In this document: positions 761 through 2,259 of the stretch, piece after piece
Numbering within the stretch: the stretch's first letter is position 1
How the letters are laid out: the number at the start of each line of letters is the position of its first letter
Source: a virus
Direction: 5' to 3' (one strand)
DNA length: 26,860 bases
Virus record (IMG/VR): IMGVR_UViG_3300010885_035331
Coordinates: 1 to 26,860 of that record
Notes under the pieces: model-generated
What the model was told of the DNA's origin: nothing
Database searches by the model: none
What the model saw: the letters and a program-made list of their open reading frames with translations, nothing else
Made by a program: the position numbers and the translations under genes

Positions 761-1196
761 GACCTAAATCTAACAACTTTTTAACCACTTAAAAACCGCA
801 TTCGACTCTAGGGAAAAATCGCACTTTTTGTTGTACCTATCACGATTTTAAAAATCAGTATTTTTTCAATAATTGAATAAAAACTACCAAAAAATACCTC
901 TAATTTAACAGCCAAATCTAACAACAAATTCTAACCGAAATCTAACAACAAATTCTAACAATCTAACAACAAATTCTAACAAAATCTAACAACAACTAAC
1001 AAAAAATGGTAGTTAAAACCAAGATATTTACGCGGGCGGGCGCGTTTCTCTTTATACTATTTTTTGAAATTGGAATTTCCAAGATGGTAGATAAAACCAA
1101 GATAAATTTATGGGGCACACGGTAAACAAATAATCTGAGGGCCGGGAGTTGCCAGAAAACTTCGCAACCTAGCAACCTACCTAACTAACTACTTGA
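761..1196. other. Gene-free, repeat-dense stretch
   Basis: No gene is supportable here. The stretch contains the left TCTAAC repeat cluster, two of the three 19-bp GGTAG repeats and a GC-rich patch (CGCGGGCGGGCGCG near 1031-1044) set in AT-rich DNA. A possible small hairpin lies near 1150-1172. This is what a replication origin or a control region would look like, but nothing proves either. Confidence 0.5.
917..1000 (+). repeat. Iteron-like direct repeats, TCTAACAACAAATTCTAAC
   Basis: Three perfect copies of this 19-mer begin at 917, 941 and 962, followed by a shortened copy (TCTAACAACAACTAAC) at 985-1000. Seven TCTAAC hexamers occur in 74 bp, and another lies at 769-774. Inverted copies (GTTAGA) lie at 2195-2259. 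Confidence 0.85.
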
Positions 1197-1284
1197 ATGA
1201 TTATTGAATTGAGTATTGATGCCCCCGCAGATTTGATTGACGCCCTTGCAACATGGCAAGAGCAAGGTAGATAAAACCAAGATA
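1008..1284 (+). repeat. Three 19-bp direct repeats GGTAG(A/T)TAAAACCAAGATA
   Basis: Copies at 1008-1026 (T variant), 1086-1104 and 1266-1284; the last two are identical. A partial relative (TAGTTAAAACCAA) precedes the 482 gene. Copies 2 and 3 are each followed by a GCCAGAAA-containing segment, an AACTAAC-rich segment and then an ORF. This suggests a duplicated upstream control module, possibly a phage-specific promoter or operator. Confidence 0.75.
1197..1274 (+). CDS. Possible 25-residue peptide
   Basis: A short ATG frame encoding MIIELSIDAPADLIDALATW plus five more residues. It sits downstream of the same kind of CTAAC-rich, Shine-Dalgarno-free leader as the genes at 1368 and 1850, and has similar GC-rich codon use. 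Its stop lies inside the third 19-bp repeat. It may be a real small gene, a leader peptide or a truncated remnant; only its context supports it. Confidence 0.3.
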   Translation: MIIELSIDAPADLIDALATWQEQGR

Positions 1285-1304
1285 GAATAAAAGCACGACG
1301 GCAA

Positions 1305-1325
1305 ACCCGCTGCCAGAAAGCGGGT
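1305..1325 (+). other. Small stem-loop before the 1368 gene
   Basis: A 7-bp perfect stem (ACCCGCT with AGCGGGT) and a 7-base loop, GCCAGAA. The loop sequence also occurs near 1154. No T-run follows. Confidence 0.5.
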
Positions 1326-1367
1326 GAATGAAAAAAGCAACTAACAAAGCAACTAACTAAAAAAAAT

Positions 1368-1772
1368 ATGTCCACCATCACAAAGCAAGTACAATTTCCG
1401 GTTTCCGGATCACAAGAGTTCAAGGCGTTCGTCACGGCCTGCCGCGAGAGTTACGGGGCCGCTGGTACCACGAAAGAATATAAGGCAATCAGTGAACGGG
1501 AAGTCAGTGACTCAATCCTAGCGTTTATCCACGCCAACCGCATGGAACGCATCAATTGCCTAGTAGATAATGATCTGGGCGAAGAAATCGAGGAAATGCA
1601 AGAGACAGGAATCGACCTTTTCGAGTTGGAAATCAACCGCACGCTTGCTTTACGTGCTACACAAAGCCGTCAAAACACTGCTACCGTCAAGCTGGCCAGC
1701 GCGCAAAATGAAATCGAGTCACTTAAGGCTCAGCTTGCCGCAATGTTAAATGCACAAGTTGGAAGTTATTAA
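1368..1772 (+). CDS. Unknown coiled-coil protein of GC-rich origin
   Basis: 134 residues, ATG start, stop 13 bp before a strong terminator. The N-terminal half is mixed alpha/beta. The C-terminal 60 residues are helical with heptad-like spacing (about residues 95-128), suggesting oligomerisation. No family recognised. Base composition and codon use are clearly richer in GC than in the surrounding late genes, consistent with recent acquisition or with a different expression class. The leader is A-rich and CTAAC-containing, with no Shine-Dalgarno sequence. It lies between TCTAAC clusters of opposite orientation together with the next gene. Confidence 0.7.
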   Translation: MSTITKQVQFPVSGSQEFKAFVTACRESYGAAGTTKEYKAISEREVSDSILAFIHANRMERINCLVDNDLGEEIEEMQETGIDLFELEINRTLALRATQSRQNTATVKLASAQNEIESLKAQLAAMLNAQVGSY

Positions 1773-1784
1773 CTAGCAGATCTG

Positions 1785-1822
1785 GGGCCGATAGCATAAA
1801 AAACTATCGGCCCTATTTTTTC
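1785..1822 (+). terminator. Rho-independent terminator
   Basis: A 10-bp perfect stem (GGGCCGATAG / CTATCGGCCC) with a 9-base loop, then TATTTTTTCT. It separates the two GC-rich genes. Confidence 0.9.
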
Positions 1823-1849
1823 TCCAATATCAATCTAACGAAAAAATCA

Positions 1850-2134
1850 ATGAGCGAAACATCTAAAAATCAAATCATCCTTGCCTTGGACATGGCGGAA
1901 AGCCTGCTTTGTGCCTTGGAAAGCACACTATGCCCCCCACAAGCGTTCGCAAGCATACGGCGGGCCATAGTCCTAGCGGTGACTTCAAAGCTCGCCAAGG
2001 GCAATCCTAGGGCAACCAGGCTAGCCGATGCTGCTGCCGTTGCTGCGCTTGATGCGTATTGTGACTGGCAAACCAGAAAAACCACCGATGAAACACTGGA
2101 CGTGACGCACGCAATCGTTCACTGGCAATTCTAA
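1850..2134 (+). CDS. Unknown 94-residue protein of GC-rich origin
   Basis: ATG start after CTAACGAAAAAATCA, with no Shine-Dalgarno sequence. The product is helical and rich in Ala and Leu, with several Cys in the first third (MAESLLCALESTLCPPQAF) and a Trp near the C-terminus. It has no membrane segment or known motif. Like its upstream neighbour it stands out by GC content. A terminator on each side suggests it is transcribed alone, so a promoter probably lies in the short gap at 1823-1849. Confidence 0.65.
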   Translation: MSETSKNQIILALDMAESLLCALESTLCPPQAFASIRRAIVLAVTSKLAKGNPRATRLADAAAVAALDAYCDWQTRKTTDETLDVTHAIVHWQF

Positions 2135-2140
2135 ACGCTG

Positions 2141-2179
2141 AAAAAATTGCCGCAAGACTTGGCAAACCTTGCGGCAATT
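2141..2179 (-). terminator. Intrinsic terminator for minus-strand transcripts
   Basis: A 12-bp perfect stem (AATTGCCGCAAG / CTTGCGGCAATT) with an 11-base loop. Read on the minus strand it is followed by TTTTTT; on the plus strand it has no T-run. It lies between the convergent 1850 gene and the minus-strand unit ending at 2490. Confidence 0.75.
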
Positions 2180-2194
2180 CTACACGGTGGTTTC

Positions 2195-2259
2195 GTTAGA
2201 TATAGATATACTAACAATTGTTAGGGTTCTGTTAGAAATTGGTTAGATTTTTTGTTAGA
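2195..2259 (-). repeat. Inverted TCTAAC cluster with a 14-bp palindrome
   Basis: GTTAGA, the reverse complement of TCTAAC, occurs at 2195, 2231, 2242 and 2254. The perfect palindrome CTAACAATTGTTAG lies at 2211-2224. Orientation is opposite to the cluster at 917-1000, so the GC-rich gene pair lies between inverted clusters. Confidence 0.75.

Follow-up and report, generated by a model that had tools for sequence, protein, structure and literature searches.

A conserved single-copy intergenic element closes a small-gene array in a clade of uncultivated T4-like phages

Downstream of the orf134 gene family, in the virus record IMGVR_UViG_3300010885_035331 (analysed whole, 26,860 bases, and here called the window) and in uncultivated relatives of its phage, lies an intergenic element that closes an array of tiny genes. 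Because the element is conserved, present in a single copy per genome and fixed in its internal spacing, a cis-acting site is supported as its putative nature. We tentatively read it as a composite terminator/boundary site that closes the array in a ~200-kb T4-like phage clade.

The major head protein and head maturation protease of the window are T4-like, and the closest cultured capsids are those of cyanophage myoviruses (~31% identity). Single-protein searches with orf134 and orf94 in viral contigs gave no match; relatives were reached via the capsid gene, which led to ~80 uncultivated relatives of the window phage. orf134 also had no match among GenBank phages. The relatives are all metagenome records and may be fragments. 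Their sizes include 197–212 kb, and the 211.7-kb record G038 is probably circular, its capsid gene being split across both record ends. The near-identical sets G014/G015 and G021/G037/G041 were each entered once in counts.

Layout and variants of the element

The element was recovered in 14 further records besides the window, with 12 distinct versions in all, and consists of a core (GTTAGRAWTTG), a gap of 35–36 nt, CCATR and then AT-rich DNA. The invariant part of the core comprises GTTAG and positions 8 (A), 10 (T) and 12 (G), and in one version the core ends in TAG. The gap from core to CCATR (CCATG or CCATA) is 35–36 nt in 12 of 12 distinct versions, ten records having been recognised first by the core, with no gap length preset, and G021, G032 and L173, which count less for the spacing, by searches that allowed a limited gap range; the background frequency of CCATR is 0.0023 per base. 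In the window, the core (TGTTAGAAATTGG; positions 2230–2242, on the plus strand, as are all features below unless stated) is shared with relatives, in which it lies downstream of their orf134 homolog; in the window it is followed after exactly 35 nt by the conserved CCATG (2278–2282) and by three AT-rich direct repeats of ~50 nt (2280–2476; start-to-start distances of 54 and 75 nt), each with TTTTCCCCTATAGCG.

The sequence of the spacer is not conserved apart from a G- or C-run ahead of CCATR. R-loop priming by a G-run was considered and rejected, since the same strand of the GC tract is rich in C in G003, G007, G038 and G032. The AT-rich DNA after CCATR forms tandem repeats in about half of the versions: significant direct repeats are present in the window, G003, G007, G015, L173 and G021, and G038 has a short one; Tandem Repeats Finder reports arrays at the element in G007, G014, G003 and G021, and iterons in G007 and G038. 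In stability, the G007 tract ranks in the lowest 0.05% of its genome. Upstream of the core, an 11-nt periodicity is strong in G007 (z 7.0) and G030 (z 5.3); it is moderate in G038, weak in the window and absent in G003, G004 and G015.

These repeats bear on the main rival explanation, doubtful but to be weighed, in which the element is a secondary replication origin of the T4 oriE type; an initiator, for which the orf134 product might serve, would bind the iterons, and the AT-rich repeats next to them would melt. The iteron-like periodicity in G007 and G030, weaker in G038, the tandem AT-rich repeats and the low stability of the G007 tract are consistent with it, as is the example of T4 itself, in which 12-nt repeats at even spacing adjoin the small early genes at oriE, and strand switches are close to several of the origins (PMC3016281). 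However, fewer than half of the 12 versions have clear iterons, and no initiator family was recognised in orf134, for which the AlphaFold model is poor (pLDDT 60). In a search for gp59 the control was silent, and no Rfam family matched positions 650–2600 near its gathering score.

A hairpin is predicted at or beside the core in every version, with unrelated stems. In G038, G003 and the G021 group, it encloses the core and ends in a T-run; no T-run comes right after the core hairpin in the window, G004, G007, G013, G015 or G030.

A profile search with orf134 matched 8 of 36 records, all eight of which carry the element. In G011 the element lies at the contig start, and L173, found by its DNA pattern, has an orf134 homolog. 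The element is also present in the G021/G037/G041 group and in G032, in which orf134 was not detected; in G032 (locus L182), an ORF upstream of the element contains VKKQYAVTCSQATKEILDTIKK and looks like a putative distant relative of orf134. Exact matches to TGTTAGRAATTGGTTAGA in L123, L125 and L126 were set aside as chance, as were most of the pattern matches (L167, L169–L172, L174–L176 and L178): all lack both a GC tract ahead of CCAT and AT-rich repeats behind it, and the majority read as coding.

The small-gene array and the genes of the window

The tiny genes of the array, which we take to be early and have named accordingly, each have a local promoter-like motif. The 211.7-kb G038 record has 16 copies of this motif (TTAAAACCNNNNTARRAT), 15 of them on one strand at 170.0–177.8 kb, in the 8.3 kb that immediately precede the element. 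The next ATG usually follows exactly 6 nt later, a spacing that would fit a −10-like hexamer driving a leaderless transcript. Other motifs have the same role in G003, G013, G021, G030 and G032. The motif often overlaps the preceding stop codon, both in G038 (L138–L148) and in the window.

The G038 motif is present in the window at 458 (TTAAAACCAATCTAAAAT; 458–475), 6 nt before the ATG of a 68-aa ORF of the array (482–688) whose homologs in G003 and G038 likewise lie upstream of their element; a pattern scan places an intrinsic terminator at 715–753 that closes this gene. Variants of the motif are repeated at 1008–1026 (copy 1, GGTAGTTAAAACCAAGATA), 1086–1104 (copy 2) and 1266–1284 (copy 3, upstream of orf134). 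Copy 1 is directly followed by a GC hairpin (ACGCGGGCGGGCGCGT; 1030–1045), and similar GC-rich sequence without an ORF occurs in G003, G038 and G030; the hairpin and its likes are possibly a small RNA. The stop codon of a conserved micro-ORF (MIIELSIDAPADLIDALATWQEQGR; 1197–1274) overlaps copy 3, and micro-ORFs of this kind (25–29 aa; ISIDAxxDLIDALA) are conserved upstream of orf134 in five phages. The micro-ORF, the three motif copies and the ~50-nt AT-rich repeats at 2280–2476 had been overlooked in the initial annotation.

That annotation had described two GC-rich genes with their own terminators and CTAAC-containing leaders. The composition holds: orf134 (1368–1772), which adjoins the element in relatives too, and orf94 (1850–2134), for which no relatives were found, have GC contents of 48% and 53%, versus 35% for the window. 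The leaders are likewise borne out, CTAAC being present ahead of the micro-ORF (1181 and 1185), orf134 (1341 and 1353) and orf94 (1835). As for the terminators, the hairpin after orf134 (GGGCCGATAG/CTATCGGCCC, then TATTTTTT; 1785–1821, stem 1785–1813) is convincing on reading, although absent from the pattern-scan list; the strong hairpin after orf94 (2145–2179) lacks a T-run. On the minus strand at 2490–2783, a 97-aa ORF matches phrog_7595, and a DNA match to Roseobacter phage CRP-738 falls in the same ORF.

Two repeat clusters of different kinds

Counted on both strands, TCTAAC occurs 24 times in the window, versus 14.9 expected from shuffles, and 13 of the 24 sites fall within 765–2260 (1.5 kb), with only 11 in the other 25.4 kb, so that the sites are concentrated here. 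The window contains CTAAC/GTTAG chains of 8 and of 6, whereas chains of five or more arose in only 2 of 500 mononucleotide shuffles of it. The repeats themselves are as first described. On the left (917–1000) are three perfect 19–20-mers plus partials, TCTAACAACAAATTCTAAC occurring exactly three times (917–935, 941–959 and 962–980) with a partial copy up to 1000. On the right (2195–2259), GTTAG is found at 2195, 2220, 2231, 2242 and 2254, the last four spaced 11–12 nt, with four copies of GTTAGA in the region (2195, 2231, 2242 and 2254) and a single copy of the palindrome CTAACAATTGTTAG (2211–2224).

The two clusters are different kinds of thing. The left cluster has no counterpart in relatives, three close TCTAAC having been sought in 50 of them with none found, and it appears, as far as tested, to be private to the window phage. 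Dense CTAAC/GTTAG chains in relatives, among the loci compared, occur only downstream of orf134, and the right cluster is, by its sequence, the window phage's copy of the conserved intergenic element. The support for a cis-acting site rests on the right cluster.

The opposite orientation of TCTAAC and GTTAGA in the window and the GC-rich genes between them had also suggested a mobile cassette bounded by inverted repeats; an integron-like array was considered as well, since TCTAAC...GTTAGA resembles attC ends. We regard both as very improbable. The block is not absent as a unit from relatives, which keep orf134 and the micro-ORF, and partly the 68-aa gene, in the same order and place; the idea of two matching clusters as the frame of a cassette is not supported, the left one having turned up in none of the 50 relatives searched; and no tyrosine recombinase (PF00589) was detected in six relatives, with control genomes positive. 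Integron-type recombination at the TCTAAC/GTTAGA ends was rejected for want of this recombinase.

Position in the genome

In the full-length records G003, G007, G014 and G038, with both curves computed treating records as circular, the element lies 1.9–4.9 kb from where cumulative GC skew, which here follows gene orientation, peaks globally, and 2.2–9.5 kb from the peak of the transcription-strand curve; the corresponding values for the partial G021 record are 5.9 and 1.1 kb. Splitting third-position skew by strand gave no consistent replication signal. Transcription converges at the region of the element, where the reading direction of the genome flips; since the genes to its right run in the same direction in G003, G004, G007 and G011, this convergence is a regional tendency rather than a strict rule.

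The opposite extremum, the skew minimum, lies 58–74 kb further on in G003, G007, G021 and G038, where it adjoins a UvsY-like gene and a uvsW-type helicase gene (identified by profile in G003 and G038, and by reading in G007 and G021); in G038 a gene for a late sigma factor comes next. G014 differs in that its minimum lies elsewhere, and no uvsY/uvsW-type genes were seen in the stretch read. At the divergent switch in G003 (L203:1–1200) and G038 (L140:1–3500), an AT-rich intergenic stretch is preceded by GGGGTGGTGGGCGGGCTAGGTA, and the skew-minimum region of G038 has ~12 copies of TATAGTAAT.

An origin with iterons at the element, as first proposed, is in keeping with the 11-bp iterons of some relatives, the AT-rich repeats and the proximity to a skew extremum (within 5 kb in the four full-length genomes). 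The skew itself, which had been suggested as a check, speaks against this proposal, the element lying at the cumulative maximum, opposite to the usual polarity, whereas a conventional bidirectional origin is expected at the minimum. Under ordinary polarity the main origin would lie at the skew minimum, with the element at the far side, and the uvsY–uvsW minimum, which has the setting of T4 oriF, is the better candidate for the main origin.

A position at the skew maximum would suit a replication-terminus, partition-like or packaging site, present in a single copy with protein-binding boxes, and the fixed spacing, suggestive of a nucleoprotein complex, would suit it as well. Such a site is nevertheless unlikely: proteins of the Ter, Par or packaging-site kind were not recognised, and T4-like phages package by the headful without a known fixed site. 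For the partition-like locus of the initial annotation, no partition gene was recognised.

Discussion

For a terminator/boundary site, we count the constancy of the gap (12/12), the T-run hairpins, the position at the skew maximum, the array motif and the co-occurrence with orf134 (8/8). Transcription of the array would be stopped at the element by one or two hairpins. The core, the 35–36-nt spacer, CCATR and the AT-rich tract would together make up a single DNA site to which a phage protein probably binds, and this site would insulate the early arm from the late region that reads in the opposite direction. The GTTAG, CTAAC and CTGATAG boxes, which in the window, G007, G030 and G038 are phased at ~11 nt, may be extra copies of the core box, of which the left cluster may represent a private amplification in the window phage.

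What can be read at the sequence level is a core with its spacing, a single copy, the end of an array, a convergent switch and predicted hairpins, some with T-runs. Against a terminator, a plain one needs neither a fixed spacer to CCATR nor AT-rich tandem repeats, and six versions have no classical T-run right after the core hairpin. The fixed spacing and the AT-rich repeats look more like the footprint of a protein–DNA complex. It is conceivable, if rather doubtful, that the element represents a previously undescribed class of control site (an origin, a terminus or a fork/transcription barrier) to which a phage protein, possibly that encoded by the adjacent orf134, would bind.

Several known systems share parts of this layout. 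Iteron plasmid replicators have short direct repeats, a GC tract and AT-rich repeats in a row; the element also has these in series, but no Rep protein was recognised and iterons are absent in most of its versions. With intrinsic (Rho-independent) terminators it shares GC hairpins, T-runs in several relatives and a place at the end of a co-oriented array; it differs in its conserved loop sequence, the fixed 35–36 nt to CCATR and the AT-rich repeats. T4 oriE (iterons beside repEA/repEB) resembles it in even repeats of ~11–12 nt, present in some versions of the element, in small early genes and in a strand-switch region; unlike oriE, however, the element has iterons that are not universal, a position at the skew maximum and a core at fixed spacing to CCATR and AT-rich repeats. 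T4 oriF, ori(uvsY), likewise uses an AT-rich tract in a strand-switch region, but the UvsY-/UvsW-like genes of this clade are at the other switch, 58–74 kb away, so that oriF corresponds to the skew minimum and not to the element.

The element thus offers a precise, testable landmark in a large uncultivated T4-like group, with one copy per genome, at a strand switch and in a fixed layout. The clade also provides natural variants with and without iterons, of interest for T4 oriE, where what the iterons do is still described as ill defined (PMC3016281). The finding also points to uvsY–uvsW as the place to seek the main origin.
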